Source: a virus. Taken from it: DNA of 64,000 nucleotides. Below are positions 22,378 through 51,027 of the stretch, one piece after another. A model generated the notes under the pieces. The model saw only the letters and a program-made list of their open reading frames with translations. It had not been told where the DNA came from and did not search any database. The stretch lies in IMG/VR virus record IMGVR_UViG_3300035704_000393, positions 1-64,000 of that record; one strand, 5' to 3'. The first letter of the stretch is position 1, and the number at the start of each line of letters is the position of its first letter. A program made the position numbers and the translations under genes.

Positions 22378-22406
22378 TTGCATCGCCCGGCCCAGTGGAT
22401 TACGGT
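22378..22406 (+). promoter_or_regulatory. candidate promoter of the XRE regulator
   Basis: TTGCAT (22378-22383) and TACGGT (22401-22406) are spaced by 17 bases, 40 bases before the ATG at 22446. The surrounding 22170-22445 stretch is otherwise non-coding and divergent toward the minus-strand gene, so operators for the regulator are likely to lie here. Confidence 0.5.
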
Positions 22407-22445
22407 AACTGCGACCCTACCGCGCACAGAAGGTCACAGACCGTA

Positions 22446-23288
22446 ATGGCCGCCGAAAACTCGTCCGCCCGCCTGCTCGGCGCCGAGCTGCGCGGCTGGC
22501 GCGACCGCCGCGGCCTGACCGGCGATGCCGTCGCCGGCCGCCTCAGATGGTCCCCGTCCAAGGTCTCCCGCGGCGAGACAGCCACCACCCGGCTGATCCG
22601 CGCGGCCGACCTGGACAAGCTCATCGTCCTCTACCGGATACCGCCCGAGGACGCCGACCGGCTCCGCGGGCTGCGCGAAGCCGCCGCCGACGGCCTGGAC
22701 ATGACCGGCCCGGGCCAGGACCCCCGCATCGCCGAGCTGCTCATCTGGGCGCCCGACGTGTTCCCCTCTGCGTTCCGCACCGAGCTGTACGCCCGAGCCC
22801 TGATCCGGGCGATGCGCCGCATCCGCCGCTACACCCCGTCCGAGATCAAGGCGGAGATCACCGCCGACCGCGACCTGCAAGCCCGGCTCCGCGGCGACCG
22901 GGCCGCGGACAACGACGGCGACCCGCTGCCCCGGCTGCCCGTGACCTGCGTCCTGGACGAAGCCGTGCTGACCCGCCGCCGCGGCGCCACCTCGGTCATG
23001 GAAGGCCAGCTCGGCCGGCTCGAAGAGATGGCCCGCCTCGGCGGCGTGGAGATCCACGTCCTGCCGCTGGAGGCAGACGGCCCCACCAGTGCCCCGTTCG
23101 CCCTGCACGGCTACGACGACGAATCCGCCGATACCGTCCTGCTCACCAGCCCGTCCGGGACCGAGTACGTCACCGACGAGAAAGCCGTCACCAGTTACCG
23201 GTTCCTGCACGAGGACCTGGTAGGCGCCGCCGCCGACGTCGAAGAGACACTCGCCATCATCAAGCAGGCGAGAGGCCGGTGGGAATGA
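22446..23288 (+). CDS. XRE-family regulator with DUF5753-type domain
   Basis: This 280-residue protein starts at ATG 22446. Residues 8-70 form a helix-turn-helix (LGAELRGWRDRRGLTGDAVAGRL, then WSPSKVSRGET). The rest follows the DUF5753 layout seen in many actinobacterial regulators: ELLIWAPDVFPSAFRTELYARAL at about 98, CVLDEAVLTRR at about 178, GGVEIHVLPLEADG at about 200, and a DDESADTVLLTSPSG end. Chromosomal relatives regulate development and often pair with small partner proteins. Here it could be a phage repressor or a host-derived gene. It starts a three-gene operon with 4-nt overlaps. Confidence 0.85.
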   Translation: MAAENSSARLLGAELRGWRDRRGLTGDAVAGRLRWSPSKVSRGETATTRLIRAADLDKLIVLYRIPPEDADRLRGLREAAADGLDMTGPGQDPRIAELLIWAPDVFPSAFRTELYARALIRAMRRIRRYTPSEIKAEITADRDLQARLRGDRAADNDGDPLPRLPVTCVLDEAVLTRRRGATSVMEGQLGRLEEMARLGGVEIHVLPLEADGPTSAPFALHGYDDESADTVLLTSPSGTEYVTDEKAVTSYRFLHEDLVGAAADVEETLAIIKQARGRWE

Positions 23289-25079: not shown

Positions 25080-25543
25080 GGCCCGGCCCCGCTGAAACTC
25101 CAGCCGCGGTTCAGCGCGTACGGGTACGGGCAGTCGTCGCCGTGGCCGCACCCCTGGATCTGCCGCCGCCACTCCGCCCGGGCCGCGACCGCCGCCGCGG
25201 GCCGCGGACCGTCTGGCATCCCCGGCAGCGCCTGCTCGAAGTCGAGCACCACCAGCTCCGGCGGACCCGGATACTCGTCCGGGTCGTAGTACTCGTGCAG
25301 CTCCCCGAACGGCCCGCCGGTCAGCACGCAGTGCACGTACGGCCGGCCGGGCCGCAGCGGCGGCCAGAACCGGGGCCGCCGCGCCCCGTGCGCGTTGACC
25401 CCGCCGGCGCCCTGCTCGACGCAGGCCGCCCGGACCTGCCAGATGATCTCGCCGCGTGAGCCCAGCAGCTGCCACACCCCGGCGTCCCGGTCCAGGACCC
25501 ATCCCTTATCCACGGCGGCATCGTAGCGGAAGGAGGCGGTCAT
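25076..25543 (-). CDS. hypothetical protein divergent from the portal gene
   Basis: This protein of up to 155 residues starts at ATG 25543, within two bases of the portal gene's ATG (shared CATG); GTG 25513 is an alternative. It has an aromatic, acidic centre (FGELHEYYDPDEYPGPPELVVLDF) and a Cys pair near the end (QGCGHGDDCPYPYALNRGW). I do not recognise it. The face-to-face starts mean that the promoter of one gene lies inside the other. Confidence 0.55.
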   Translation of the reverse strand: MTASFRYDAAVDKGWVLDRDAGVWQLLGSRGEIIWQVRAACVEQGAGGVNAHGARRPRFWPPLRPGRPYVHCVLTGGPFGELHEYYDPDEYPGPPELVVLDFEQALPGMPDGPRPAAAVAARAEWRRQIQGCGHGDDCPYPYALNRGWSFSGAGP

Positions 25544-28500
25544 GCCGGCCCGAACGCGGATGAACGGCGTGCCGACCACCCCCGTCGGCCGCCCCGATGT
25601 GGTCTGGGGGCTCCCCGGGCAAGGGGGATTGCTCACCGAATGGGCCGAGACAGTTCCGGATCTGACGTGGCCGGAATCAATCCGGACATACGGGAGAATG
25701 CGCCGGGACAGCAAAATAGCAGCCGTTCTCAGCGCATTCTTCATGCCCATTCTCCGCACAAACTGGGCGGTCGACCCGGAAGGCGTCACCAAGGCTAAGG
25801 CGGTCGACCTGGTAGCCGCGGACCTGGGCCTGCCCGTGCTCGGCCAGAAGGGGCCGCCGCCCGCGATGGCCACCGTGCCCGGGTTCCACTGGGGCGAGCA
25901 CCTGCGGCTGGCGCTGCTGCACTACATCTACGGGTTTTTCCCCTTCGAGCGCTGGTACAACGCCAAGTCCAAGGACGGCCTGACCCATCTGGCCGGCCTG
26001 GACGAGCGGCTGCCGCACACCATCGCGCTGATCGACCTGGCCGACAACGGGCAGATCAAGTCGGTTACGCAGAACACCCAGCTGAACCCGCTTACCGCTA
26101 ACCGCCTTTTGTGGTACGTGAATGAGCGCGAAGGCGCGAACTGGGCGGGCGTGTCAATGCTCCGCGCGGCCTATACCCCGTGGGTTCTCAAGCACGAGAC
26201 AATGCGCGTTCATGCCACCAGCATCCGCCGGTGGGGAATGGGAATGCCGGTCGTCAAGGCGCCCCCCGGCGGCACCCCCGGCCAGGTCTCCCAGGCGCAG
26301 CAGCTCGCCTCGGGGATGCGGGCCGGGGACACCGCCGGCGTCGGCCTGCCCGACGGGTTCAGCGTCGAGATCGCCGGGATGACCGGCTCCGTGCCCGACG
26401 CGCTCGGGTTCCTGAACTACTGCGACCAGCAGATCGCCTCCGCGGCGCTGGCCGTCTTCCTGGAACTCGGCCTGTCCTCCGGCGGCGCCCGCGCCCTCGG
26501 CGACACGTTCCTGGACATGTTCCTGCTGTCGCTCCAGGCAGCCGCTGACGCGATCGCCGACACCATCTCGTACGGCGTGCCCGCCATGCCGGGCATCGCC
26601 CGGGCGCTGACCGACATCAACTTCGGCGAAGACGAGCCGTGCCCGCGGATCGTCGCGACCGACGTCGGCGACCGGCACGAGATCACCGCCACCGCGATCC
26701 AGCAGCTCGTCATGTGCGGCGCCGTCCAGCCCGACGACGGCCTGGAAGCGTTCATCCGGCAGGCGTGGGACTTCCCCGCCCGGACCACCCCGCGGACCCC
26801 CCCGGCACCGCCCAAGGCCCCCGGGGCGCCCGGCGGCCCGCCGAACCCGGCCGCGCCGTCCAGCCCGAATCCGGCCGCGCCCGGCCCGCAGCCCGGCGCG
26901 CCCCGGCCGCTCACCGGCCCGCCCGGCCGCCGCGGCGGGCAGCCCGCCACCGGCCCGGCCCGCTCTGCCGGCGGACCGACAGCAGCCGCCGGCGTGGAAG
27001 CAAGCGCCGGCGGCGGCCTGCGACGCCCTCTGACGGAGCTGGAGGCCGCCGCCGGGCTCGACCCCGAAGCCATGCGCGCCGACCTGGAAACCGCCACCAG
27101 CCGGGTACTCGGCCAGTGGGGGTCCGTGCTCCGCGCGCAGCGCGCCGACCTCGCCGACCAGGTAGCCGCCGCCGTCGATGACGGGCAGCTGCACCAGCTC
27201 GCCGCCCTCCAGGCCCCGTCCGGCGACGCCGCCGACGTGCTGTACCGGGCGATGGCCGCAGTCGCCGCCCGCGCCGCCGGCCGGATGGTCGCCGAAGCGG
27301 CCGGGCAGGGCGTCACCATCAACCTGGCCGACGTCGCCATCAACCACCCCCGGCTCCGGCAGCTCGCCACGGCCCGGGCCTTGATGGCCGGCCAGACGCT
27401 GGCCACCGCCGCGTCCCGCCGTGCCCTCCAGGTCGTCACCGCCACGGCAGGCACCGACGCCGCCCGCGAAGTCACCGCTGTCCTGGCCGGCCTGTCACCC
27501 AAGCCGCTGGCCGACCAGCTGACGGCCGCGATGCACTCCGCCGCCAACGAGGCCCGCTTCGCCGTGCTCGACGCCGGCCCCGGCGCCACCTACACCGCCA
27601 CCGAGCTGGCCGACGACCCGAACTGCTGCCAGCCCTGCCACGACGTCGACGGCCACCAGTTCGCCAGCCTCGCGGATGCGCGAGCGTCCTACGCCAACGG
27701 CGCCTACATCCACTGCCTCGGCGGGCTCCGCTGCCGCGGCACCGTCGTCGCGTCCTGGCCCGAGGAAGGCGGGCAGCCCGCCGAGCCCGGCTGGCCGCAC
27801 AACCTGACCCCGCCGCCCGACCTCACCATCGGCCCGGGCGTGGCCGCCGGGTTCGACCCCGGCGAGCGACGCGACCCGCACACCGGCCAGTGGACCGGAG
27901 AAGGCGGCAGCACGGCCCGCACCCTGACCCGCAAGGGCCACGGGAAGCTATCCGCCGTCGACCGGCTCGGCGCCATCCGCGCCGACGGCACCTTTGAGCC
28001 CATCACCGCCGCCGAAGGCGCCCGCGGCGACTCCCGGCCCGTGTCGATGGCGGAGTTCCAGCGGCTCGCCGCCGAAGGCCGCGAGAAGCTCGCCCGGTTC
28101 CGCGCCGAGTCCGCCGCACCCGCCGGCCTGGACGCCAAATGGGACACGATCAAGAACGACGCGTGGGCCGAGGTGCAGAAGCCCTGGGGCGGCGCCACCA
28201 TCGACGCGCACACCGGCGAGCCCCTCCAGACCGCCGCCGCGCGGTACGCGCTCACCGTCAAACCGGTCGACCTGGACCCGGTGTCGGTCCCGGAGAAGGC
28301 GTCCGAGGCCCAGTTCAAGGCCGCGATGGACGAAGCCCGGCGGCGGTTCGCCGACCAGCTCGCCGCCCGGCAGGCATACCTCGGCGTGTTCCACGACGAC
28401 GACCAGGGCCGCATCGACATCGACCCCACCCTCGTGGTCGACAACCTGCACGACGTCGAGACCATCGGCGCGTTCACCCACGCCATCGGCGGCGCGTACA

Positions 28501-31500
28501 ACTTCGCCGACGGCAACGGCTACTGGCCACCGCACGTCGCCGAGCAGGCCGGGCTCGCCCCGGCCGCCGCCGCCAAGGACGACGAGCAGGGCAAGCCGGT
28601 CCCGTTCAAGGGACCCGGCCAGTGGCGCACCCAGGCCGACAAGGCCCGCCGCGACGCCCTCAAACGGCTCCAGGAGCAAGGCGGCAGCGACGAGCACGCC
28701 GGGCCGGACACCACCACGGCCACCGCGGTCCGCATCGACGTCACCCTCAACCCCGGACACGACCTGCCGGACTGGCACCAGCCCGACCACGGCACCCTGG
28801 CCTCCGCCCAGGACGAAATCGGCAGGCTCCGCGACTGGCCGGGCGGCGGCGCGGCGATCCGCGAGGTGGTGGTCCGCCCAAAAGGTGAAGCCGCCCACGC
28901 GGCGGCCGACACCCCAGGCGGGGCCTGGACGGTCCGCTACGTCTTCGCCCGCTCCCGGCCGGCGTTCGACCCCCGCGAGGCCCGCGACACCGCCGGCCGG
29001 TGGACCAGCACCGGCCTCAAAGAGGCCCTCCGCCTGCCCGGCGCCCACCGCATCGACGCCGCCGACCAGCCCGGCCACGCCATCATCGCGTTCGGCGACC
29101 CGGCCACCGCCCGCCACGTGGTCACCTACGTGCCCGGCGTCGGCGACGACAAGGGCCTGCCCGGCGAGGCCCGCCGCGCGCTGGCCACCAGGCGCGCCGC
29201 CGACGCCGAACACAAGGGCGACTCGGCCGTCATCCTCTGGCAGGGCTACCACCGGCCCGGCAGCTTGCACGACGCACTGTCCAAGACCGACGCCCTCGGC
29301 GGCGCCCCCGGCCTGGCCGCCTTCGAGCAGCACCTACGGCAGATCAACCCGTCCGCACACCAGACGGTCATCGGCCACTCCTACGGGTCCGTCGTCGCCG
29401 GCGAAGCCGCCCGCCTGCACCACATGCGCCCCGACGACCTGGTATTCGTCGGCAGCCCCGGCACGACCGCCCGCACGGTCACCGACCTGGGTATGGACCC
29501 ACGGCACGTGTGGGCCGGGGCACACACCCAGGACCCCGTAGCCCGCCTCGCCCCGGTCCTGTCCGAGGACTTCCACGGCAGCCCCACCAGCCTGGACTAC
29601 GGCGCCCAGCCGTTCGCCGCCGACACACCCGGCCAGGAGTTCCCCGGCGTCTTCCACGGCGCCGCGCACTCGTCCTACTGGTCCGGCACGAGCCAGGCCC
29701 TGCCGAACATGGCGGCGATCGCCGCCGGAGACTACGGCAAGGTACTCCGCAAACGACCCGCCCCGGTCACTGTCTCGGCCAGCCACGCCGAAGCCGCCAC
29801 CCTAGTCACCGCCGCACTCCGCCAGGATGACGCCGCCCCTGTCGCGGCCGGCTCCGACTTCGACCTGAAGCACCCCCGCGGCTACCACGGCCGGTTCGGC
29901 CACGGCGTAGGACCGCCCCGCAAGACCCGCATCCCCGCCGGCCTGGACAGCGGCGACCGCAAGATGATCGCCGACCAGCTCACCGCCTGGGCCAAGGCAG
30001 AGAAGGACGACAGCCTCAAAACCGCCCTGGGCATGGTCGCCACGAGCTACGCGGACGGCGACTACCCCGGCGCCGCCTACCGCCTCCGCCTCGCCGCGGA
30101 CCGCGCCGCCCAGCTCGGTCGCCCCCTCGACCACGACCAGATGAACACCATCGCCGGGCTGATCGGCAAGCTCGGCACCGGCGGCGGCGGCGAAGGCTAC
30201 CCCGGCCAGCACCGAGACCAGATCAGCAGCCACTGGCGGGCCGAAACCGACCCCGAAGCCAAACAGCACCTCAACGTGGCCGGCGCCGCCTACGGCAACA
30301 ACCAGTACGACCAGGCCGCCGACGAACTCCGCGAGGCCGCCGGCCGCGTCGGCCCCCTCGGCCGCACCGCCGACCGGGACACCTACCTCGCCCTGGCCGA
30401 CGCGATCGAGCAAGAAGGCCAGGACAACGGCATCAGCCACGCCGCCCAGCTGCTCACAGCCATCGGCACCGAAACCGACGCCACCAACGTCGGAACCATC
30501 GCCGACCAGCTCAGCTACGCGCACCGCGTCATCGAAGCCGCCCACCAGGGCACCCGGTGGCGTTCCCAGGCCGCCGGGTACCTCCGCCAGGCCGCCGACC
30601 TCGCCCGCGCCACGGGAGACAGCCAGGCCGCCAACCGGTACGAGAACCTCGCCCACCGGGCAACACACCTGCCCGACGAGCAGGCACCCGGCGACCGCGA
30701 CGTCACGGCCCTGCTCGCCAGGGCCGCACCCGACGTCCCGGAGCTGCTCGGCGGCGGCGACCAGCGGTGGAACGGCCGGCTCGGCACGTTCACCAAGACC
30801 GACCAGCCCGACTACCTCGGGTTCACCTACCCCGACGGGCACATCGAGTTCCGCACCGACGTCGTAAACGGCCTGCTCGACGCCCAGGCCCACCCCGGCA
30901 AGGTAATGCCCGAACCCGACAACCTCGACGTCGTGCTCCACGAGCTGATCCACGACACCACCGGCGGTCGCACCGAGCAGGACAAGAAAGACTGGGCCGC
31001 GCTGCCCCCCGCCGAGCAGAACGCCCTGGGCGGCATCCACGAGATGGATCAGCACGACGACCCGTCCGGCCGCGGCAACCCGATCGCCCGCGCCCCCAGC
31101 CAGATCCAGCGGGTCCACCTGTGGATCACCAAGGCGCAACTCGACTCGCTCGTGTCCCGCGGGCTGATGGAGAAAACCGGCACCAGCAGCGGCGGCGGGG
31201 ACGGCTCGCTGGAGCCCGACATCCGGCTGGCAGGCAAAGCCCTCCGGATCATGCCCCATGCCGACAGCGCCGCCGACGGCGACGCTTACACCTCCGTGAC
31301 CGGCCACGACATCGAGGAAGGGTTCACCGAGCTGGGCTCCACCCAGCACATGGAGCAATTCGCCAAGGACCAGGGATTCGCCCAGGTGATGACCCCGCGG
31401 CTATCCGTCGCGCCGCTGGGCACCCCGCCCACCGAGAAGCAGGTCCTCGACGTCCAGGACGACCTGAAAACCCTGTACGACGACGCCGGGAAGGTCGGCG

Positions 31501-34500
31501 GCCAGCCCGGGTCGCTGGAAGCCTACGTCACGCTCAGCAACGCCATCCACGAGATGGAGTCGATGACCGGCCCGGACGCTGACACCACCGCCTACGCCGG
31601 GTACCTCGCCCAGGCCGCCCGCACCCAGCCAGACCCCCTCATCCGCAGGCGGATCAACGACCTGATGACCCGGCTCGGCATCACCGGCGGCGGCACCGTC
31701 GACAACCCGGCTTACGACCGGGCTGTCACCCGGCTGATCGGCGACCTCCAGAAGCAGTGGGCCAAGCTGTCCGGCGACCAGCGCCCGCCCTACCAGCAGG
31801 CCGCCGAGCACCTCGGCGGCATGATCGAGGACCTCAAAGCCGACCACGCCCAGCTGGCCGCCTACGACTTCACCGGCCGCGACTTCTCCACCACCGGGCA
31901 CGCGCTGGCCGAAATCCAGCACCTGGGCGACCCCGGCCTGGCCAAGTGGGCCATCAAGATGAAAGCCCAGGCGGCCAAGGCCCAGCAGATCCCGGCGGCC
32001 CGGCACGACACCGTACCCGAGTACGCCCACGGGCTCGCCGCCCCCGCCAAACTCGCCTCCAGCGGGTCGTGGGGCCACTACCCGATCCTGACCGCCAACG
32101 CCCAGCAATGGGTCCAGTCGATCGCCCGCAGCGAACACAAAACCGGGCTCGGCAAGCAGGGCACAGCCGGGTACAAGCGGACCGTCGAGCTGGCCGACGA
32201 GATCAACCGGGAAGGAACCGCCGGGAAGATCACCGCGATGGCCCGCCAGGTCCTCCGCAACCAGGGCATCGACCCCGACACCGCCGACCCCTCCGTGCTC
32301 GCCGACGTCCGCGACGAGATCATCGCCACCTACGGCGACCCAAGCTCGGCCGGGCACGGCGCCGCCGCCGCCTACAAAGCCGCCCGCCGGGTCGCTAGGC
32401 AGCGGCAGCAGGGATACCAGCGGCAAGGCGGCACGATGGTCAAATTCGGCGCCGCCGCCGACGACGCCGACGACGAGGACGCCCAGCCGCCCGTCAGCGC
32501 CACGCTGACCCCGGCCGGCGCGCAGGCCGAACGGATCAGGGCCTGGGCCTGGCACGACCCCGGCGCCCGCCTCGACCAGGCCAGGGCGCAGGTCCGCCAG
32601 CTCGCCGAGCAGACCACCGACCCGGCCGCCCTGCGCCAGGTCCAGGACGCCGGCCGCAGCCTGGCCACCCTCGCCGCCCTCCGGCAGCCCGCCGCCGGCC
32701 CCGCCGCGGCGTTCCGCCCGGACGAGGCGCGCGACCCGCACACCGGCAAATGGACGGGCGGCCCCGGCAGCACCGTCACCGCCCGCGAGCGTGTCACCGG
32801 CGCTAACGGCGCAGTACAGCCATCCCTGACCACCGCCCAGCAGCAGCACCTGGCGGCAGCCGCCAGGGCCGCGAAAAAGACCATGACACCCGCCCAGCGG
32901 CACGCCGTCGAGCAGTGGACCAGCGCCCGCGGCATGGTGCACCGTATCCAGGCCGGCCAGGTCTCCGACGCCACCGCCACCGCGTTCGACCAGGCCATGC
33001 ACGCCGCCCCGAAAGTCGACGGCCTGGTCTACCGCGGAGTGCTGCCCGGCAGCCACGGCGCCCAGGTCGCCGAGCACCTGACCCCGGGCGACATGCTGAC
33101 CATAGACAAGCCGGTATCGACCTCGGCCGACCCCCGGCAGGCGGTCTCATTCGGCAACGACCTGTACGAAATCGACTCGCCAGCGGCGGCCTACGTCTCC
33201 GGCGTCGCCCCCGGCTACGCCTACGAGAAAGAAGCCGTCCTGGCCCCCGGCCGGTACCAGGTCGTCAGCACGGAAACCGGCAAGATCAACTACCTCAGCG
33301 TCCGCAAGACCGGTCCCGTCCGCATCATCCGGCTCCGCGACGTCACCACCGGCGACCGGACCTGGCGGCCATCCGCCACCGCAGCCACCCCGGCCGCCGC
33401 GGCGCCGCCCGGCGGCGAGGACAACCGGGCGCACCGGTTCCTGGACGGCGCCGGCACCGGCGAGTTCACCCCGGCCGGCACCCTCGCCGCAGCCGGCGTG
33501 GTGACCGCAGACTCCGACTTCGAGCGCAAGCACCCCCGCAGGCCCGACGGGAAGTTCGGCCACGGCCCCGGCGGAACCGTCCGGCCCGACAACGACCAGC
33601 TGATCACCGACAGCCTGTACCGCCTGTACCAGGCCGAGCAGGACCCCGACGCCCGCGCCGCCGTCCAGCAAGCCGGCCGCGCCTACGCCGACCACGACCT
33701 GCCCGCCGCCGCCCGCGCGCTCCGCGACGCAGCAGGCCACGCCACCAACCCCGGGATCTACACCTACCTCGCCGGCCGCGTCGAGGACCGCCACGCCGCC
33801 CAGGCCAGCGAACCCGCCAGGGCGATCGCCGTCGCCGGCCCGGCCGCCAGGGCCACCGCCGCGGCCCTGGACAAGGCCCTGGCGTCCGGCGGGGAACACG
33901 ACACCAGGCCCGGCGAGGACCTCCCGGCAGGCTCCGACGAGCGGCGCTTCTTCGGGAACACCGCCGACACGGCCATCGTCACCTACGCCGACGGGTCCAA
34001 GTGGGTCCGCAAACGCGGCAACCGCCTGCACCCCTTCACCAACGATGACGTCAACCACGAAGTCGCCTACGCCCGCGTCGCCCGCGCGCTCGGCATCCCC
34101 GCCCCCATCGCCATCAAGCACACCGGCCCCGACGGCCGGCCCGAACTGTACGAGCCGTTCGTCACCGGCGGCATCCCCGCGATCGAATGGACCGGCGGCC
34201 TCGACCCGACCGAAGGCGACGACCCCGAACCCGGCCGCGACCCCGCCCAGCTGTACGACACCCGCGAAGGCCGCATGATCGGCCTGGCCGACTCGATCGC
34301 CGGAACCTCCGAACGGCACCTCGGGAACTGGCTCGTCGTCCACGACGCCGCCGGCGACCACCCCGTCCCGATCGACAACAACGACGCCACCTTCGGCCCC
34401 GTGTTCGGGTCGATCACCCCGTTCGCCGACTTCGACCCGCCCCAGCTCGCCGCCGAAACCGACGCCGACGAGTGGGCACAGTGGCAGGCCGGCCTGGAGG

Positions 34501-34598
34501 CCCTGCAACCCGAGTTCGCCCAGCTCGGCATGACCACCGAATGGCGCAACGTGATGAGCAACTACACCGAGGCCAAACGCCAGGCAGGCGAGACATGA
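25542..34598 (+). CDS. giant portal-MuF fusion carrying a string of effector-like enzyme domains
   Basis: This 3018-residue protein starts at ATG 25542 after AAGGAGG. Residues 1-415 are a DUF935-type (Mu gp29-like) portal. A Pro-rich linker leads to a MuF-like domain (505-740) with the NCCQPCHDVDG / HCLGGLRCRG metal motif. Then come: an unassigned domain (780-1135, with AYLGVFHDDD); an alpha/beta hydrolase like DUF1023/Abhydrolase_8 (1150-1420, nucleophile Ser1280 in GHSYGS); helical repeats and a zincin (HELIH, His1800-Glu1801-His1804, third ligand in IEEGFTELGS); a helical stretch; an ADP-ribosyltransferase (Arg2498, STS 2526-2528, EKE 2562-2564); and a kinase-like fold (2770-3018; ERHLGNW, Asp2945). 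Portals are normally 400-700 residues. Five boundary motifs separate the parts. Confidence 0.8.
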   Translation: MPARTRMNGVPTTPVGRPDVVWGLPGQGGLLTEWAETVPDLTWPESIRTYGRMRRDSKIAAVLSAFFMPILRTNWAVDPEGVTKAKAVDLVAADLGLPVLGQKGPPPAMATVPGFHWGEHLRLALLHYIYGFFPFERWYNAKSKDGLTHLAGLDERLPHTIALIDLADNGQIKSVTQNTQLNPLTANRLLWYVNEREGANWAGVSMLRAAYTPWVLKHETMRVHATSIRRWGMGMPVVKAPPGGTPGQVSQAQQLASGMRAGDTAGVGLPDGFSVEIAGMTGSVPDALGFLNYCDQQIASAALAVFLELGLSSGGARALGDTFLDMFLLSLQAAADAIADTISYGVPAMPGIARALTDINFGEDEPCPRIVATDVGDRHEITATAIQQLVMCGAVQPDDGLEAFIRQAWDFPARTTPRTPPAPPKAPGAPGGPPNPAAPSSPNPAAPGPQPGAPRPLTGPPGRRGGQPATGPARSAGGPTAAAGVEASAGGGLRRPLTELEAAAGLDPEAMRADLETATSRVLGQWGSVLRAQRADLADQVAAAVDDGQLHQLAALQAPSGDAADVLYRAMAAVAARAAGRMVAEAAGQGVTINLADVAINHPRLRQLATARALMAGQTLATAASRRALQVVTATAGTDAAREVTAVLAGLSPKPLADQLTAAMHSAANEARFAVLDAGPGATYTATELADDPNCCQPCHDVDGHQFASLADARASYANGAYIHCLGGLRCRGTVVASWPEEGGQPAEPGWPHNLTPPPDLTIGPGVAAGFDPGERRDPHTGQWTGEGGSTARTLTRKGHGKLSAVDRLGAIRADGTFEPITAAEGARGDSRPVSMAEFQRLAAEGREKLARFRAESAAPAGLDAKWDTIKNDAWAEVQKPWGGATIDAHTGEPLQTAAARYALTVKPVDLDPVSVPEKASEAQFKAAMDEARRRFADQLAARQAYLGVFHDDDQGRIDIDPTLVVDNLHDVETIGAFTHAIGGAYNFADGNGYWPPHVAEQAGLAPAAAAKDDEQGKPVPFKGPGQWRTQADKARRDALKRLQEQGGSDEHAGPDTTTATAVRIDVTLNPGHDLPDWHQPDHGTLASAQDEIGRLRDWPGGGAAIREVVVRPKGEAAHAAADTPGGAWTVRYVFARSRPAFDPREARDTAGRWTSTGLKEALRLPGAHRIDAADQPGHAIIAFGDPATARHVVTYVPGVGDDKGLPGEARRALATRRAADAEHKGDSAVILWQGYHRPGSLHDALSKTDALGGAPGLAAFEQHLRQINPSAHQTVIGHSYGSVVAGEAARLHHMRPDDLVFVGSPGTTARTVTDLGMDPRHVWAGAHTQDPVARLAPVLSEDFHGSPTSLDYGAQPFAADTPGQEFPGVFHGAAHSSYWSGTSQALPNMAAIAAGDYGKVLRKRPAPVTVSASHAEAATLVTAALRQDDAAPVAAGSDFDLKHPRGYHGRFGHGVGPPRKTRIPAGLDSGDRKMIADQLTAWAKAEKDDSLKTALGMVATSYADGDYPGAAYRLRLAADRAAQLGRPLDHDQMNTIAGLIGKLGTGGGGEGYPGQHRDQISSHWRAETDPEAKQHLNVAGAAYGNNQYDQAADELREAAGRVGPLGRTADRDTYLALADAIEQEGQDNGISHAAQLLTAIGTETDATNVGTIADQLSYAHRVIEAAHQGTRWRSQAAGYLRQAADLARATGDSQAANRYENLAHRATHLPDEQAPGDRDVTALLARAAPDVPELLGGGDQRWNGRLGTFTKTDQPDYLGFTYPDGHIEFRTDVVNGLLDAQAHPGKVMPEPDNLDVVLHELIHDTTGGRTEQDKKDWAALPPAEQNALGGIHEMDQHDDPSGRGNPIARAPSQIQRVHLWITKAQLDSLVSRGLMEKTGTSSGGGDGSLEPDIRLAGKALRIMPHADSAADGDAYTSVTGHDIEEGFTELGSTQHMEQFAKDQGFAQVMTPRLSVAPLGTPPTEKQVLDVQDDLKTLYDDAGKVGGQPGSLEAYVTLSNAIHEMESMTGPDADTTAYAGYLAQAARTQPDPLIRRRINDLMTRLGITGGGTVDNPAYDRAVTRLIGDLQKQWAKLSGDQRPPYQQAAEHLGGMIEDLKADHAQLAAYDFTGRDFSTTGHALAEIQHLGDPGLAKWAIKMKAQAAKAQQIPAARHDTVPEYAHGLAAPAKLASSGSWGHYPILTANAQQWVQSIARSEHKTGLGKQGTAGYKRTVELADEINREGTAGKITAMARQVLRNQGIDPDTADPSVLADVRDEIIATYGDPSSAGHGAAAAYKAARRVARQRQQGYQRQGGTMVKFGAAADDADDEDAQPPVSATLTPAGAQAERIRAWAWHDPGARLDQARAQVRQLAEQTTDPAALRQVQDAGRSLATLAALRQPAAGPAAAFRPDEARDPHTGKWTGGPGSTVTARERVTGANGAVQPSLTTAQQQHLAAAARAAKKTMTPAQRHAVEQWTSARGMVHRIQAGQVSDATATAFDQAMHAAPKVDGLVYRGVLPGSHGAQVAEHLTPGDMLTIDKPVSTSADPRQAVSFGNDLYEIDSPAAAYVSGVAPGYAYEKEAVLAPGRYQVVSTETGKINYLSVRKTGPVRIIRLRDVTTGDRTWRPSATAATPAAAAPPGGEDNRAHRFLDGAGTGEFTPAGTLAAAGVVTADSDFERKHPRRPDGKFGHGPGGTVRPDNDQLITDSLYRLYQAEQDPDARAAVQQAGRAYADHDLPAAARALRDAAGHATNPGIYTYLAGRVEDRHAAQASEPARAIAVAGPAARATAAALDKALASGGEHDTRPGEDLPAGSDERRFFGNTADTAIVTYADGSKWVRKRGNRLHPFTNDDVNHEVAYARVARALGIPAPIAIKHTGPDGRPELYEPFVTGGIPAIEWTGGLDPTEGDDPEPGRDPAQLYDTREGRMIGLADSIAGTSERHLGNWLVVHDAAGDHPVPIDNNDATFGPVFGSITPFADFDPPQLAAETDADEWAQWQAGLEALQPEFAQLGMTTEWRNVMSNYTEAKRQAGET

Positions 34599-42800: not shown

Positions 42801-43621
42801 CCGCCGAGCCCGACGAGGACGGCGGCGAGGGCGTGGCCGCAGCCGGGGACACGGTGCACGAGCCGATCCACGGCAACTTCGACGGGTCCCACTCCCACCC
42901 GCACCGCGCGTACGGCACGCAGGGCTCCGACGAGACCCACGAGCACAAGCACACCCACTCCGGCGACGGCCGGCACGATCACGCGCACGCAGAAACCCAA
43001 GCCGCAGCAGACGCGGCGGCCACCCAAGAAGAAGGGAACCCGGGCATGGGCTACGAGTTCACGACAGCACAGATGGCCGCGATCCGTGCGCGGCTCGGCA
43101 AGCAGGAAGGAGAGGAAGTCGCCGCCGGCGACATCGCCGCCGTGTTCGGCGCGCCGCAGCCCCCGTGGCCGGTCCAGGCCGCCGCGGCAGGCACCAGCGG
43201 CGACGGCCCGGTCGAGGTCCCGGTCATCGCCGACGGCGTGCACCTGGTCGAGGCCAACATCCTCCGCAAGTACCAGGAGGAAGCCCTCGCCGGCCAGCGG
43301 GCCGTCCGCGCCATGCACGTCGCCCAGCGCGACGGCATCCTCGCCGCGGCGATCAAGGACGGCAAGTTCGCGCAGTCCCGGCTGGAGCACTTCCAGACGC
43401 TGTGGGACCGGGACCCGGACGGCACCCGCAAGCTCGTCGCCAGCCTCGCCGGCGGGCTGGTCCCGATGGCCGCGGTGGGGTCCAACGGCGACTGGGCCAG
43501 CGACCCGGACATGCCCGGCGACTTCGACGCGCAGAGGGCGTACCGGGACCTGTACCCGGAAGACACGCAGGGCGGCGTCAGCCCCGCTCCGGGCGTGAGG
43601 GGCGGCGCCTACAGTGGCTGA
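39857..43621 (+). CDS. capsid protease-scaffold protein with peptidoglycan-binding domain
   Basis: This 1254-residue protein starts at ATG 39857 (TGATG overlap). Residues 100-155 are a PG_binding_1 domain (QVRQLQARLKALGYNIAVDG, FGPQTLAAVRQFQ). A Lys/Thr/Gly-rich linker follows. Residues about 466-625 match the Mu-I/DUF2213-like protease of actinophages (QPVIKIGHLD, GEPAIGRVMNLR, AFPRRSVEG, GLALLGVTPPGV). Residues about 700-960 are helical. A His-rich stretch lies at about 1001-1050 (HEHKHTHSGDGRHDHAH). The end (1060-1254) looks like a scaffold tail. Boundary motifs sit at about 64 and 310. It should process or scaffold the prohead. Confidence 0.7.
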   Translation: MAAAPPPADQAKAAAGLLKLFTGAGASQADAQAAADHYVAAAEKMITSGDYALPAGGASTAAAWNPAAHPRAPAGGPAGGQFAPGGTGAAPTNAKPVGEGAKGPQVRQLQARLKALGYNIAVDGIFGPQTLAAVRQFQASHLDANGKQLKEDGLVGPLTTSALRQKTPAKSGAKGRTSKTGGTTKTRTTPKPGTARTTTGKKTTGKKSPTTARAITRGKAQIAKTAKTKTTSPATTGVAANDVPGSVTKPQQAAVTNELTLRKIPPAQAQAFKADLTRLSRNDATALLAYIRNTYTFASAPSGDVSALSGFDENETRDTHGRWTTAEGGPGSPAARLHGKQVRGHTPEGNDVRGRYDHNTKEVLDRFGGRHKVTRVREEDPVSAAGGQSNRGNAETLHRYWGTGEGAAKIRWGTDGDHMRCVRQLMEHGHFTEEQAHGYCNLMEKRVTGEYPAQHAHREKAAAGDTPAGLPALVTIPGVDILAAGTWALSTGRQTFTAADLQSAIDASECPAVGQPVIKIGHLDPRFAPQPEHDGEPAIGRVMNLRLSGNGAKIVGDLAGMPGWLAGIAASAFPRRSVEGKYRFRCQIGHQHPFVLTGLALLGVTPPGVGVLSGLPDVATLYGLTAAAAQAGQAWRTEQDQEGTVMAVTEEDVRRQYYATAGAPQSWWITELQMFPPQLIVADEQSGKIYRVGYRIDGSAVAFDQAQEVASYADVAAARGTGPVVAYASAADSRAVILAAWDGAAAVRQLGDNPSSGTLRAMFAIPGTTKSDSSLPHHDVSGGKVGAANPDACSAAIAALNGGRGGMKGVSASQAKAAYSHLASHLRTAGRTPPDFSGAQDGDGDGVDWQTEPAEQIGWQFAYIAATYGGQDPPGAEPDGGQEPGTELEPGSLAARWQRLLEIRAAATDTDADDTVQGLVASLDATLDQAAALAGQVDPKAVPEAAGQVLALVVAAEALVDQLMDKLGIYDPDDTDSDTSAAAEPDEDGGEGVAAAGDTVHEPIHGNFDGSHSHPHRAYGTQGSDETHEHKHTHSGDGRHDHAHAETQAAADAAATQEEGNPGMGYEFTTAQMAAIRARLGKQEGEEVAAGDIAAVFGAPQPPWPVQAAAAGTSGDGPVEVPVIADGVHLVEANILRKYQEEALAGQRAVRAMHVAQRDGILAAAIKDGKFAQSRLEHFQTLWDRDPDGTRKLVASLAGGLVPMAAVGSNGDWASDPDMPGDFDAQRAYRDLYPEDTQGGVSPAPGVRGGAYSG

Positions 43622-43991
43622 CTACGCCCCCGTCTACGGCCGGCCCCAGCAGGTCAGCTTCACCGCGGGCGCGGCCATCACCGGCGGCCAGCTGCTGTCG
43701 TTCTCGGCTGCCGACACCGTGATACCGGCCGCGAACAACGCCGCCAACTACGCGGGCGTCGCCGGCCACGACGCGGCCTCCGGCGCCCCGGTCACCGTGC
43801 TGATGGGTTCCGGTGTCGTGCACGAGACGCTGGCCACCGCCGCCACCGCGGCCGGCGCGCTCGTGTTCGCCGGGTCGGCAACCGCCGGCCAGCTCGGCGC
43901 CACCAGCACCGGCTACGGCGCGGTCGGCGTGGCCGTCCGCGCCACCGCAGGCGCCAACGGGCTGCTGCGGTGGAAGGCCCTGGTGGGGTGA
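43614..43991 (+). CDS. DUF2190-like capsid decoration protein 1
   Basis: This 125-residue protein starts at GTG 43614, overlapping the protease-scaffold stop. The opening ADYAPVYGRPQQVSF, then AAITGGQLLSFS, GVAGHDAASGAPVTVL and the end GLLRWKALVG, fits the beta-barrel cement/decoration family (DUF2190-like). It is the first of four tandem relatives placed directly before the major capsid gene. Such proteins bind the capsid surface and stabilise it. Confidence 0.7.
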   Translation: MADYAPVYGRPQQVSFTAGAAITGGQLLSFSAADTVIPAANNAANYAGVAGHDAASGAPVTVLMGSGVVHETLATAATAAGALVFAGSATAGQLGATSTGYGAVGVAVRATAGANGLLRWKALVG

Positions 43992-43994
43992 GCC

Positions 43995-44369
43995 GTGGCC
44001 GACTACGAAGCGACATACGGCCGCCCGCAGCACCTCCAGGCCACGGCCGGGGCAGCCATCACCGGCGGGCAGGTGCTCGTCTACTCCGCCGCTGACACGG
44101 TGATCCCGGCCGCCGGGGCCTCGTCCGCGTTCGCCGGCGTGGCCGGCCACGACGCGGCGAACGGCGCCCCGGTCACCATCCTGGCGGGCTCGGGGATCGT
44201 GCACGAGACCCAGACCACCGCCGCGGCGGTCGCCGTCGGGGCGCTGATCCAGTCCGCCGCAGGGGGCCTGGTAACCGGCGGCGCCGCGGCCGGCGCTGAG
44301 ATCGGCGTCGCGATCCGGGCGGTGTCAGGTTCCGGCGGGGTCCTCCGCTGGAAGTCCACCAGGGGCTAG
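43995..44369 (+). CDS. DUF2190-like capsid decoration protein 2
   Basis: This 124-residue protein starts at GTG 43995. It is colinear with its two neighbours: ADYEATYGRPQHLQA, AAITGGQVLVYSAADTVI, GVAGHDAANGAPVTIL, GSGIVHET, and the end GVLRWKSTRG. The nearly identical block spacing shows tandem duplication. All four copies keep the GHDA turn or its equivalent, so they are likely functional and may occupy different capsid sites. Confidence 0.7.
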   Translation: MADYEATYGRPQHLQATAGAAITGGQVLVYSAADTVIPAAGASSAFAGVAGHDAANGAPVTILAGSGIVHETQTTAAAVAVGALIQSAAGGLVTGGAAAGAEIGVAIRAVSGSGGVLRWKSTRG

Positions 44370-44373
44370 GCCG

Positions 44374-45093
44374 GTGGCTGACTACGCGCCGGCCTACGGC
44401 CGGCCGCAGGACGTTACCTTCACCGCCGACGCCACCATCACCGGCGGGCAGCTGCTGTATTTCAGTGCGGCTGACCGGGTATCGCCGACCACCGGGCCGA
44501 CCGCCGCGTTCGCCGGGATCGCCGGTCACGACGCCACGCCCGGCGCTCCGGTCACGGTGCTCGCCGGCTCCGGTGTCGTGCACGAGACACCCACGGCCGC
44601 GCAGCTGAACGCGCCGGCCCAGCCCGTCCCGACCACGGCCGCGGCCGGCGGCACAGTCGCGGACGGCACCTACAAGGTGGCGGTCTCCTACGTCACCGCC
44701 TCCGGTGAGACCACCGCCTCAACCCAGGGCACGATCGTGACGGCGGGCGGCGGCACGTCCACGATCACCGTCCCCTCACCCTCGGCGCAGCCCGGCGCGA
44801 CCGGGTGGTTCGCCTACGTCTCCCAGGCTGGCGGCTCCACCCTGACCCGCCAGCAGGCCCCCGGAGCGCCGACGAACATCGGCACCGGCCTGACCCTGAC
44901 CGCGCCGCCCACCTCGGGCGGCGCCCAGCCGCCCGCGGGCAACACGACCGGGATCACCCCCGGCGAGCTTGTCTCGGCCGCAGCCAGCGGCCAGATCGCC
45001 GGCACCACCGCAGCCGGGATGGACATCGGCGTCGCCATCCGCGCCAGCCCCGCAGCCGGCGGGCTCGTCCGGTGGAAAACCACCCGCGGCTAG
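44374..45093 (+). CDS. DUF2190-like decoration protein 3 with inserted Ig/Fn3-like domain
   Basis: This 239-residue protein starts at GTG 44374. Residues 1-75 and 195-239 are the decoration fold (ADYAPAYGRPQDVTF, GIAGHDATPGAPVTVL, and the end GGLVRWKTTRG). Between them, about 115 residues form an Ig/Fn3-like domain (GTYKVAVSYVTASGETTAS, TGWFAYVSQAGG). The insertion lies in the loop after GVVHET, so it would project from the capsid, as Ig-like domains on phage capsids do, perhaps to bind cell-surface or mucus glycans. Confidence 0.7.
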   Translation: MADYAPAYGRPQDVTFTADATITGGQLLYFSAADRVSPTTGPTAAFAGIAGHDATPGAPVTVLAGSGVVHETPTAAQLNAPAQPVPTTAAAGGTVADGTYKVAVSYVTASGETTASTQGTIVTAGGGTSTITVPSPSAQPGATGWFAYVSQAGGSTLTRQQAPGAPTNIGTGLTLTAPPTSGGAQPPAGNTTGITPGELVSAAASGQIAGTTAAGMDIGVAIRASPAAGGLVRWKTTRG

Positions 45094-45203
45094 CGCCGGG
45101 ACCCCCCGGGCTACATGGATACCCGGGCGCCCCGGCTGGGGCGCAAGCGCCATGCTCGCCGCTCACCCGTAACCCCGAACCCTAGCAAGCCGCGGGAGGC
45201 CCG

Positions 45204-45605
45204 GTGCCCGACTACACGCCGGTATTCCTCCCCGGCCTGACCATCACCCTCATCGCCGCCGCCGGCCTGACCGGCGGCGACCCGGTGGAAGTCGGCGGGT
45301 CCGGAACCGTCCAGAAGGTCACCGCCGCCGGGTCGATGCGGTACGTCGGCATTGCCGCCCACGACGCCATCGCCGGCTACCAGGTCACCGTGATCCTCGA
45401 CCGGGCGGTGCACGAGGGCGCCGCCGACGGACCCATCAACGCCGGCGACCAGCTCGCCGCCTCACCCAGAGCCGGCCACCAGGTCACCCAGCTGCCCGCC
45501 GCGCTCACCGCCGCCGCGGCGGACGTCAACCTGGCCCGCGCCGTCATCGGCGTGGCCCTGACCTCCGCGGCCGACGGCACCACCGTCCGCTGGATGCAGC
45601 GGTAA
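45204..45605 (+). CDS. DUF2190-like capsid decoration protein 4 (diverged)
   Basis: This 133-residue protein starts at GTG 45204 behind GGGAGG. It shares the architecture of its three neighbours but is more diverged: PDYTPVFLPGLTITL, GLTGGDPVEVGGSG, YVGIAAHDAIAGYQVTVI, then AGDQLAASPRAGH and the end GTTVRWMQR. This form is closer to stand-alone decoration proteins of other actinophages. A hairpin separates it from the major capsid gene. Confidence 0.65.
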   Translation: MPDYTPVFLPGLTITLIAAAGLTGGDPVEVGGSGTVQKVTAAGSMRYVGIAAHDAIAGYQVTVILDRAVHEGAADGPINAGDQLAASPRAGHQVTQLPAALTAAAADVNLARAVIGVALTSAADGTTVRWMQR

Positions 45606-45721: not shown

Positions 45722-46663
45722 ATGCCCCACATTTATCCTCCGGCTGCGCCGACTCTTTCCGGCGACATTCTCACCATCAGCCGTTTCCTGAACAGCCCCG
45801 CGCTGGTTCAGAGGCGGCTTCGGACAATCGCCGAGGCGCGATTCATCGCGGACAGCATTTTGTCCGGCAGGTACGAGACGAGTGGGGGCGCTTTGCTTTA
45901 TGAGCAGACCGAATCCATTTACACCAGTAAGCCGCCCGAGGCGGTAAATGCGGGTGCAGAATACCCGCGTTCGCCGGCGGCTCCCGGTCCCGCGGCATTG
46001 GCGGGAATTACAAAATGGGGCCAGGATGTGCCCATTACCGATGAGCATGTTCACCGGTACGGGAGAAGGGCAGTGGATGTCGCGCTGCTCAAGATCGTGA
46101 ACTTCCTCGTCAAGCAGGTCGACACCACCGCCCTGGTGGCCATCGGCGCGGCCATCCCCGTCGGCAACCAGATCGCCGCCACGGCCGGATGGGACACCCC
46201 CGCGTCGTCCAACATTCTGTTTGACCTGATGAGGGCCAAGGCGCAGATCGAGCAGTTCGACCAGGGATACACCGCGGACACGGTGATCACCACCGACCTC
46301 GGCGTCGCCCGGATCGTCGCCGACCGGAACATCATCGCCGGACTGGCCCGCGAGGGCGCGACCACGGTCACCTCATCGGGTGAGCTGCGGGAAATCGGCG
46401 GCCTGCGGATCATGGCCACCAATAATATCCCCGCCCTGTCCAGCTATAAGGCGTTCGTGGTCGACTCCACCATGCTCGGCGGCCTCGCATACGAAAGGCT
46501 GGAAAGCCCGGAATACGCCGGCGATCCTGCCAACGGCGTGGAGTCCTGGACCCGCCGCGACCCGTCCGCAAATGACCAGTGGCTGGTCCGCGGAAGGCGC
46601 CCTGTCGTGCCGATCATTCAGGAGCCGAACGCGGCCGTCGCCATTACCGGCACCACCGGCTGA
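45722..46663 (+). CDS. major capsid protein
   Basis: This 313-residue protein starts at ATG 45722, after GAAAGGAAATGACGGGAA. Blocks typical of actinophage HK97-fold capsids are visible: ISRFLNSPALVQRRLR near the start, GRYETSGGALLYEQTES, then TKWGQDVPITDEHVHRYG, RAKAQIEQFDQGYTADTVITT, and the C-terminal ARRPVVP-like RGRRPVVPIIQEP. Position after protease/scaffold and decoration genes agrees. The first 370 bases use many A/T-ending codons (ATT, TTT, AAT), unlike the flanking genes, perhaps from a different origin or for expression reasons. Confidence 0.85.
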   Translation: MPHIYPPAAPTLSGDILTISRFLNSPALVQRRLRTIAEARFIADSILSGRYETSGGALLYEQTESIYTSKPPEAVNAGAEYPRSPAAPGPAALAGITKWGQDVPITDEHVHRYGRRAVDVALLKIVNFLVKQVDTTALVAIGAAIPVGNQIAATAGWDTPASSNILFDLMRAKAQIEQFDQGYTADTVITTDLGVARIVADRNIIAGLAREGATTVTSSGELREIGGLRIMATNNIPALSSYKAFVVDSTMLGGLAYERLESPEYAGDPANGVESWTRRDPSANDQWLVRGRRPVVPIIQEPNAAVAITGTTG

Positions 46664-48655: not shown

Positions 48656-48719
48656 CCAGCCCCCTGCCCCCTCCCGCCCAGCACCGTCATGCTCACCGCG
48701 CACCCCTGGAGGCCCGGCC

Positions 48720-50570
48720 ATGCCCGCAGCCAACCCCGACATGACCCGCCGCAACCTGCTCCGCCTCGGCCTCGGCGCCGCCGGCACCGTCGTCCTGCTC
48801 CGCGGCGGCGGACGCGCCCTCGCCGGACCCGCCTCGGCCGCCGTCGGCGCCACCCCCGTCCCCGGCCAGGACGGCGACCTGGCCATGTTCGGCCGCATGT
48901 TCCCCAAGCTCAAGCCCTTCACCCCGGACACCAGCCTGCCCGCCGCCCTGTCCGACCTGGCCGCCCTGTCCGACGCCATGCTCCAGCCCGGCGGCCGGTT
49001 CGACACCACCCACGGCGCCGCCTACACCTACCTCGGCCAGTTCATCGACCACGACATCACCCTCGACCTCCAGCCCCAGCCGTCCGCGTTCTTCTCCTTC
49101 GCCCAGCCCAACGCCCGGTCCCCGCTGCTCGACCCCGGCGGCAACGTCGTGTTCGACTTCGAGTCCAAGAAGCTGAACCTCTCGCAGATATACGGCGGCG
49201 GGCCGGGGATCTCCCCGCAGCTGTACGCCGCCGACGGGCTCCACTTCCTGATCCCGAAGAACGTCAACGGCGTGGTCGACCTGCCCCGCCGCGCCGACGG
49301 CAGCGCCATCCTCGTGGAAACGCGGAACGACGAGAACCAGATCCTGAGCCAGCTTCACGTGGCCATGCTCAGCTTCCACAACAACCTGGTCGACGCGCTC
49401 GGCATCCGCAACTTCACCCGGGCGATGAACACGGTGATCAAGTACTACCAGTGGGTCATCCTGCACGACTTCCTGCCGCTGTTCTGCGGCCAGGCCACCG
49501 TCGACGCGCTGCTGGCAGGGAAGGGCAAGGTCTACGACCCCGGCGCCGAGGTGCGCAAGCCGATCATGCCGGTCGAGTTCTCCACCGCCGCCTACCGGTT
49601 CGGTCACTCGATCATCAGGAACGCCTACTCGATGAACCCGGTCATCTCGCCGAACAACCGCAACGCCCGCAACACCCTGTTCGCCGGCGTCGGCGGCGCC
49701 ACCGGCCCGGCCGGCGGGACCGGCACCGCGCTGACTCCCGTCGGGGACCTGCACGGCGGCTACCCCTTGACGCTCGACCACCAGATCGACTGGCGGAACT
49801 TCCACGAGGACCTGTTCGACCCGGCCGTGCCCGGCGCGTCCCTCCAGGTCCTCAAGCAGCCCGGCGCCGACGGGCTCGGCATGATCGGCCAGTCCATGTT
49901 CGGCCAGCCCCCCGGCGCCCCCGCCGTCGGCAACGGCGCCGGCATGCCGATCGGCGGCCCCGCCGGGGTCCAGCCGGCCGGCTCCAACTCCGTCCAGTAC
50001 CGGGACTTCGTGCGCGGCCACTTCTACCTGCTGCCCTCCGGGCAGGACGTCGCCGCCGCCTACGGCCTGACCCCCATCCCGCCCGGCACCGCGATCCCCG
50101 CCTCGATCCCCGGCTTCGGCCAGGGCACCCCGCTGTTCTTCTACGTCCTCTACGAGGCATTCGTGCAGAACCAGGGCTCGCCCTCGGCCGACAACTTCGA
50201 CAACACCGGGACGAACGCCGACTTCACCAACGTGCTGCTGGGTCCGGTCGGCGCCCGGATCGTCGCGGACGTGCTGCTGCGGCTGATGAAGATCAACGCC
50301 AACGGCGTGTTCTCCGGCGGGTTCTCACCGGCCCCGCCGATCGCCCCGGCCCCCGGCCAGTTCGGCCTCGCCGACCTGCTCCGGTTCGCCGGCGTGGTCC
50401 CGTCCGGCGCCAGCCCGGCGCCCGCGCTCGGCCAGAACGCCGGCCCGCAGCCCAGCACCGCCAGCCCGAGCCCCAGCGCGACCAGCCCCGGCCCGGCCGC
50501 CACGACCCCGAGCCCGTCCCCCAGCCCGAGCGTGACCGGGACGCCGAGCCCGTCACCGACCGGCACCTGA
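48720..50570 (+). CDS. Tat-exported animal-type heme peroxidase
   Basis: This 616-residue protein starts at ATG 48720 (GGAGG box). A twin-arginine signal is visible (TRRNLLRLGLGAAGTVVLL, residues 9-27), with an Ala-X-Ala-like cleavage zone near residue 41. The body shows the animal heme-peroxidase set: GQFIDHDIT (Asp110-His111, distal), RNDENQILSQLH (Arg202, Glu205), FHNNLVD, and the proximal AAYRFGHSIIR (His296) followed by NR. The last 75 residues are Ser/Pro/Thr-rich. Such enzymes use peroxide to oxidise halides or organic substrates. It sits between tail-completion and tail-terminator genes, a position typical of morons. Confidence 0.85.
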   Translation: MPAANPDMTRRNLLRLGLGAAGTVVLLRGGGRALAGPASAAVGATPVPGQDGDLAMFGRMFPKLKPFTPDTSLPAALSDLAALSDAMLQPGGRFDTTHGAAYTYLGQFIDHDITLDLQPQPSAFFSFAQPNARSPLLDPGGNVVFDFESKKLNLSQIYGGGPGISPQLYAADGLHFLIPKNVNGVVDLPRRADGSAILVETRNDENQILSQLHVAMLSFHNNLVDALGIRNFTRAMNTVIKYYQWVILHDFLPLFCGQATVDALLAGKGKVYDPGAEVRKPIMPVEFSTAAYRFGHSIIRNAYSMNPVISPNNRNARNTLFAGVGGATGPAGGTGTALTPVGDLHGGYPLTLDHQIDWRNFHEDLFDPAVPGASLQVLKQPGADGLGMIGQSMFGQPPGAPAVGNGAGMPIGGPAGVQPAGSNSVQYRDFVRGHFYLLPSGQDVAAAYGLTPIPPGTAIPASIPGFGQGTPLFFYVLYEAFVQNQGSPSADNFDNTGTNADFTNVLLGPVGARIVADVLLRLMKINANGVFSGGFSPAPPIAPAPGQFGLADLLRFAGVVPSGASPAPALGQNAGPQPSTASPSPSATSPGPAATTPSPSPSPSVTGTPSPSPTGT

Positions 50571-50589: not shown

Positions 50590-51027
50590 GTGGCCGTCTC
50601 CGCGTCGACCGCGATCCGCGACTGGATCAACGCCCGGCCCGGCCTGACCGGTAAAGGGAACCCGCTGGCCCGCGGTGCCTACCTCGACGGCGAGGCCATC
50701 CGGTCTCCCGCCCACGGCGCCTACGCCCTGATCGTCCGGGACCCCGGCGTCAGCGCCACGGCCACCGCCGAGGACTACGCCGTGTCCCTGGCCCGGATCA
50801 CCGCGCACGTCAAGGCCGGCACCATCCAGTCCGCCGAAACCGCCGCGGGTGCCCTGTGCGACGCCTTCCAGGCGCTCACCGGCTGCCCCGAGCCGTGCGG
50901 CGACACCGGCGTCATGGTCCTGGTCGCCGACAACTTCGCCGAGCCCGGCTACGTCCCGATGCCCGGCACCGGCGGCGAGCAGCACGAGTTCACCTGCGGA
51001 GCAACCTTCATGCTCACCGCCCGATAA
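50590..51027 (+). CDS. tail terminator-like protein
   Basis: This 145-residue protein starts at GTG 50590. Its form (AIRDWINARPGLTGKGNPLA, HGAYALIVRDPGVSATATAE, RITAHVKAGTIQSAETAAGAL, and a Cys-containing end with EFTCGATFMLTA) is that of the minor-tail/terminator proteins that precede the major tail gene in siphoviruses. By position it caps the tail tube. It resumes the structural series after the inserted peroxidase. Confidence 0.65.
   Translation: MAVSASTAIRDWINARPGLTGKGNPLARGAYLDGEAIRSPAHGAYALIVRDPGVSATATAEDYAVSLARITAHVKAGTIQSAETAAGALCDAFQALTGCPEPCGDTGVMVLVADNFAEPGYVPMPGTGGEQHEFTCGATFMLTAR

Follow-up and report, generated by a model that had tools for sequence, protein, structure and literature searches.

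The Peroxidase Locus

The window, i.e., the whole stretch of 64,000 nucleotides that was analysed, comprises bases 1-64000 of a virus record of 73,676 bp. On its plus strand, a reading frame of 616 amino acids without internal stops codes for a haem peroxidase, which is located among virion genes. The following features were identified at this locus:

45722-46663, plus strand: major capsid protein, same operon (phrog_1650, E 6.5e-69; 48% identity with the capsid protein of Gordonia phage Kiko)
48188-48655, plus strand: tail completion/Neck1 gene, the left neighbour (phrog_5, E 1.8e-12)
48708-48712, plus strand: GGAGG, likely ribosome-binding site, with the ATG 7 nt downstream
48720-50570, plus strand: haem peroxidase gene, 616 amino acids plus stop (PF03098, E 5.7e-11; 83-row alignment; fold match with Z 22)
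48720-48824, plus strand: predicted twin-arginine signal peptide, residues 1-35, with TRRNLL at residue 9 and a likely cleavage after ALA at 33-35
49035-49055, plus strand: distal motif G-Q-F-I-D-H-D, residues 106-112, with the haem-ester Asp, the distal His and the Ca-ligand Asp
49323-49334, plus strand: catalytic Arg202 and haem-ester Glu205 in an R-x-x-E motif (R202-N-D-E205)
49605-49607, plus strand: proximal haem ligand His296
50004-50006, plus strand: Asp429, aligned with Asn421 of myeloperoxidase (MPO), the partner of the proximal His
50448-50567, plus strand: Pro/Ser/Thr-rich C-terminal tail, residues 577-616 (from the alignment; pLDDT under 50)
50590-51027, plus strand: right neighbour, tail-terminator-like by its position, which is kept downstream of the neck gene in L121-L123, L130, and L133

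The single Pfam match of the protein is An_peroxidase (PF03098), with a score of 42.1 bits against a curated cut-off of 25, which assigns it to the peroxidase-cyclooxygenase (animal haem peroxidase) superfamily. This match covers residues 199-306 only, and the remainder of the protein is backed by the 83-row alignment and by a fold match over residues 52-566. In PHROGs and NCBIfam, no family match was obtained for the 616 residues. The C-terminal tail is far shorter or missing in the other aligned viral proteins. The GC3 value of the gene is 0.98, compared to 0.80-0.96 in the well-called neighbours on the same strand.

A preliminary description, made from the sequence alone, had placed a complete animal-type haem peroxidase between tail-completion and tail-terminator genes. 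The completeness of the enzyme was borne out by the PF03098 match, the intact catalytic residues and the fold, and the left neighbour was confirmed as a tail completion/Neck1 gene. The name of the right neighbour is positional, its product having no family match in Pfam or PHROGs. Further genes of the window code for a tail tube protein (PF25681) and for a tape measure protein with an NlpC/P60 domain, as identified with Pfam and PHROGs. The identity of the capsid protein to that of Gordonia phage Kiko points to an actinophage, judged on gene content. On visual inspection, no integrase was seen in the terminal part of this phage's record or in a 77-kb relative.

The peroxidase gene lies on the same strand as the virion genes and is closely spaced with them. 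The 64-nt gap upstream of it (48656-48719), where an own promoter had been suspected, contains no sigma-70-like site, in a scan which actinobacterial promoters could escape. The terminator scan at the gene gave one weak terminator-like site, a count not above that of shuffled sequences, and here too actinobacterial signals may be missed. The missing sigma-70-like promoter, the common strand and the tight spacing imply that the peroxidase is most likely translated together with the virion genes.

Several other reading frames of the window are also of interest. A single reading frame of 3018 amino acids (25542-34598) begins with a Mu-type portal domain and has an alpha/beta hydrolase domain (Abhydrolase_8) in the middle of the protein. 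Upstream of the capsid gene, four small paralogous reading frames are arranged in tandem (43614-45605, starting at 43614, 43995, 44374, and 45204), and their copy number varies in relatives. A short protein (14517-14825) has a match to dual-specificity phosphatases (E 7e-6, under the Pfam cut-off) and contains a C-A-A-G-L-S-R signature, and a regulator of the HTH_31/DUF5753 type (22314-23288), which is common in actinobacteria, is a possible repressor.

Catalytic Residues and Fold

All counts of residue invariance were obtained from an alignment of 83 rows, consisting of viral proteins and 73 bacterial proteins. Q107, D110, H111, D112, R202, E205, R293, H296, and R432 are invariant in all 83 rows, and they include the distal Asp-His pair, the catalytic Arg and the proximal His which had been named beforehand. 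The signatures of the superfamily, namely, G-Q-x-x-D-H-D, R-x-x-E and the proximal His (Zamocky et al., PMC4420034), are matched by the window protein, the first of them as G106-Q107-F-I-D110-H111-D112. D110 and E205, for which ester links to the haem are predicted, are both present.

A model of the protein without haem was obtained with AlphaFold2 on the 83-row alignment, with a mean pLDDT of 76.7, a pTM of 0.81 and 286 residues at or above 90. With five close sequences only, the pLDDT was 32, so that the 83-row alignment was needed. The model was compared to known structures with VIA-align, and Z scores of 22.2 for the Cyanobacterium TDX16 peroxidase, 21.2 for DdPoxA and 20.3 for MPO were obtained, each over about 400 residues, in agreement with the mostly helical fold of the superfamily. 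Searching the PDB with the 83-row profile retrieved lactoperoxidase-type chains, eosinophil peroxidase, peroxinectin A, and myeloperoxidase (best E 5e-20). This deep profile was required, since PDB searches with the single sequence or with a profile of the closest viral proteins (group I) gave no match.

Three groups of viral peroxidases were distinguished, with the window protein belonging to group I. At position 429, Asp is present in five of five group I proteins, while Asn is present in the other two viral groups and in 72 of the 73 bacterial rows. The hydrogen bond from the proximal His to an Asn, which is characteristic for the superfamily except for families 4 and 7, is thus not to be expected in group I. 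Membership in the superfamily stands despite Asp429, which is a departure in one residue from an otherwise matching sequence and fold. In work of Carpena and colleagues from 2009, chloride oxidation was reportedly lost in the MPO variant N421D. The His-Asp pair of group I speaks against chloride oxidation, and phenol-type one-electron donors, iodide or thiocyanate would be more likely substrates than chloride. The Asp at the position of Asn421 could also weaken the activity of group I enzymes. A second difference was identified at position 155, which by this alignment is a Ca-ligand position occupied by Ser in MPO. Groups I and II share a Ser here, where group III and almost all of the bacterial proteins contain Asp.

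Export Signals

Signal peptides were called by eye and by pattern, with no predictor. The Tat pattern, S/T-R-R-x-F/L-L followed by a hydrophobic stretch and A-x-A, is found in the window protein as TRRNLLRLG, a hydrophobic stretch and RALA before a Gly. This agrees with the twin-arginine signal of the preliminary description, as a signal of Tat type in the sequence. The RR motif is present in all 10 tabulated proteins of groups I and II and likewise in three N-termini of group II that were added later. Among the bacterial matches listed, just 3 of the 73 homologues contain it, all three from the actinobacterial sister group. The N-termini of most group III proteins are Sec-like. An export signal apparently persists across the viral clade, although its type switches from Tat in groups I and II to Sec-like in group III, and export of the window peroxidase can be predicted on this basis. 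Group III proteins, if routed by Sec, would require haem loading outside the cytoplasm.

Viral Relatives and Phylogeny

At first, no phage was known to encode this family in its structural operon. The window phage is not the only carrier, however: protein and profile scans identified about 35 IMG/VR phage contigs, the window included, which encode members of a virus-specific clade, mostly in virion modules. Group I is represented by 9 contigs (one truncated), group II by 16, and group III by 10. These are counts of contigs, several of which share sites and some of which are identical, so that fewer independent phages are represented, and contigs outside the tree were counted through identity to a tree-placed member.

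In the tree of 69 rows, the 22 viral rows form one clade (ultrafast bootstrap 100, SH-aLRT 100) with a stem of 0.6, and group I is supported at 100/100. Among the bacterial matches listed, eight actinobacterial rows join the viral clade at 100/99 as its sister, so that the phylogeny against actinobacterial peroxidases, which had been suggested as a check, gave a clear placement. The bacterial sampling consisted of the listed genome-scan matches and of three samples of actinobacterial genomes (118, 178, and 148). These samples contained distant homologues only, and those put into the tree are located outside the viral clade. A cellular relative closer than these may yet exist. Most likely, the peroxidase was derived from an actinobacterial enzyme and has long been resident in soil actinophages. 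Three weakly similar loci on viral contigs (L206-L208) fall within other bacterial groups in the tree and were left out of the count, as were the unplaced loci L209 and L210. No match to the peroxidase was found in INPHARED, and in BFVD only giant-virus members were matched, with none among the phage entries. A literature search of partial coverage gave no relevant paper on phage-encoded members of the superfamily.

The carriers belong to at least three unrelated capsid families (phrog_1650, phrog_29, and phrog_10), and in most of them the peroxidase gene is located inside the virion-gene module. In the group III carriers examined, phage terminase, portal or capsid genes are close by. In the phage of L002, the peroxidase gene lies well apart from the structural genes. 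Pairwise dN/dS values of 0.27-0.59 (NG86) give rough support for purifying selection on the viral peroxidases, with dS poorly estimated, as third positions are nearly all G or C.

Other genes recur in these phages. In several carriers, glycosyltransferase-like and sugar-epimerase genes adjoin the peroxidase or the capsid gene (L099 11764-13516, L101 13312-13914, L004 7182-8222). A protein with an HNH-like stretch and without a Pfam match, putatively a lipoprotein, was identified repeatedly near head-tail genes (L121 12494-13216, L122 13144-13821, L159 15273-15941). A sigma-factor-like protein with a zf-HC2 domain (L154 7711-8802) is encoded in a 77-kb phage record which also bears a group I peroxidase, and in L201 (631-3066) the portal domain of an 811-residue reading frame is succeeded by a segment with matches to terminase and primase families, possibly a fusion or an inserted domain.

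Moron Character and Allele Exchange

In the related phage L121, with a capsid protein 82% identical to that of the window phage, a group II peroxidase occupies the same slot. In L124, such a peroxidase gene is located before the neck gene, and in L122 and L123 a peroxidase gene is absent both at the site and throughout the 108- and 58-kb records. The capsid proteins of these close relatives without a peroxidase are 81-82% identical. In L122, 12 nt separate the stop of the neck gene from the next start, and the DNA similarity between the window and L122 ends at 48657 and picks up again at 50586. Taken together, the break in similarity and the 12-nt gap mean that the extra DNA is just the peroxidase gene. 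As judged from these genome comparisons, the peroxidase is a phage moron, i.e., a single extra gene which is precisely absent from some relatives.

The proposal of a moron was thereby substantiated, by the precise flanks and by L122 and L123 without the gene. A search of related phages for a peroxidase at the same site, as had been recommended, found one in the same slot in L121 and others elsewhere in virion modules. Absence from all relatives combined with chimerism at 48.66 or 50.57 kb, or a loss of the haem ligands, had been named as evidence that would speak against a phage gene. Instead, relatives carry the gene, its flanks are precise and the ligands are intact.

The slot is also a place of exchange. 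L101 and L140 have capsid, portal, and decoration proteins which are 90%, 87%, and 86% identical, and the same slot contains a group I peroxidase in one and a group II peroxidase in the other, with only 39% identity between them. The DNA similarity of 83-84% between these two phages breaks about 0.6 kb before the peroxidase gene and returns no more than 0.1 kb past its end, and only two short weak matches lie in between. For L099 and L139, the capsid proteins are 91% identical and the peroxidases, again of group I and group II, 41%. In total, three phage frameworks, with capsids of 82-91% identity, contain group I in one phage and group II in the other at one slot.

Proposed Function

It is fairly probable that the gene product is an exported H2O2-dependent oxidase, carried as a phage moron, expressed late, with a site of action outside the infected cell or lysogen. 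From the gene and its context we infer late expression and export, activity and substrate, as well as benefit and lifestyle. As one gene within the virion operon, the peroxidase would be translated late together with the virion genes, would receive its haem in the cytoplasm and would then be exported via the Tat system of the host. Late expression need not be general, as the gene of L002 lies away from the virion genes. Outside the membrane, H2O2 would be reduced to water, and compound I would oxidise small extracellular substrates, which for this family include phenols, iodide, bromide, thiocyanate, and sometimes chloride. The benefit would be extracellular: H2O2 would be cleared from the surroundings of the infected cell or lysogen, and the oxidants formed would hit the envelope or neighbouring microbes.

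The sole important job of the enzyme might be to clear H2O2 and organic peroxides from the vicinity of the host cell, infected or lysogenic, so that this cell survives to lysis or as a lysogen. Every family member consumes H2O2, and short bacterial peroxicins are thought to handle reactive oxygen (PMC4420034). However, a catalase would suffice for this purpose and requires no reducing substrate, and the predicted exported location suggests extracellular substrates, so that a purely protective enzyme is considered unlikely. We are similarly doubtful about an oxidant weapon, in which hypoiodite, hypothiocyanite or a similar product harms competing bacteria or blocks superinfection by other phages, from which the phage or the lysogen would profit. 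The distal Gln of the halide site is retained in all proteins and all viral groups bear export-type signals, but group I contains Asp429, the residue with which MPO is said to lose chloride oxidation. An antibacterial relative is known in DdPoxA, a secreted enzyme which oxidises iodide and thiocyanate, hardly bromide and not chloride, and which limits bacterial contamination (PMC5787809).

Packaging of the enzyme in or on the particle would account for a gene located amid those of head and tail, and most carriers indeed have the gene within virion operons. A virion component is nevertheless improbable, in view of a slot that varies among phages, near relatives (capsids 81-82% identical) without the gene, the export signal, and the carrier of L002 with the gene away from virion genes. 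An assembly chimera or host contamination, or a host gene acquired by chance and non-functional in the phage, can practically be dismissed: while the closest cellular homologues among the matches listed are actinobacterial and the cultured phages of INPHARED are without the gene, it is found between phage genes in independent metagenomes and in the same slot in L121, and it belongs to a virus-only clade with a long branch and with rough support for purifying selection.

Beyond the exported oxidase favoured here, a wider view is put forward tentatively. In soil actinophages, the viral clade of MPO-like enzymes might be secreted and serve as an oxidant weapon or as an extracellular shield, exchanged as alternative alleles at the same slot of the virion operon, with the His-Asp pair giving group I a different substrate range.

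Comparison to Known Systems

The actinobacterial peroxidases of the sister group, from Spirilliplanes (L016/L107), Nocardioides (L018/L105), Modestobacter (L026), and Actinoplanes (L109), have the same catalytic residues as the viral enzymes, and in three of these proteins an RR signal is found, as in groups I and II. However, their best identities are 35% with group I and 44% with group II, they contain Asn at 429 and Asp at 155, and they are encoded on bacterial contigs outside phage operons. DdPoxA from Dictyostelium (family 6) resembles the window protein in its fold and in the distal and R-x-x-E motifs, and it is secreted, as is predicted for the window protein. It differs in being eukaryotic, in its use of the Sec route and in an identity of only about 16%, and an antibacterial role has been demonstrated for DdPoxA. 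The best structural match, the Cyanobacterium TDX16 peroxidase (8s6c; 395 residues), is a cellular protein with 18% identity. Myeloperoxidase and lactoperoxidase (family 1) are alike in fold and catalytic residues, but MPO has Asn421 in place of Asp429, and after Glu205 the window protein has Asn206 and no Met for the sulfonium link. The peroxidase of Orpheovirus (A0A2I2L5A1) is also virus-encoded and has the same fold, but this giant virus infects amoebae and is not a phage, and the identity is 15%.

Like phage morons in general, the peroxidase is a single accessory gene present in some phages only and missing from their siblings. Unlike the usual moron, it codes for an apparently secreted haem peroxidase, recurs over unrelated capsid lineages and exists in two allelic versions that alternate at one slot. 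New elements of this system appear to be a clade made up of viral proteins only, the spread of this clade across unrelated phages, the allele exchange at one slot and the His-Asp variant.

Haem peroxidases of this superfamily act in the innate immunity of animals and in the antibacterial defence of amoebae. If a long-lived, intact and exported clade is indeed present in at least three capsid lineages, infecting phages can alter the chemistry of oxidants in the surroundings of soil bacteria. On the proximal side, the naturally occurring change from Asn to Asp provides a ready comparison for the role of this residue in substrate range, and the two alleles at one slot give a direct handle on what selects for the enzyme.
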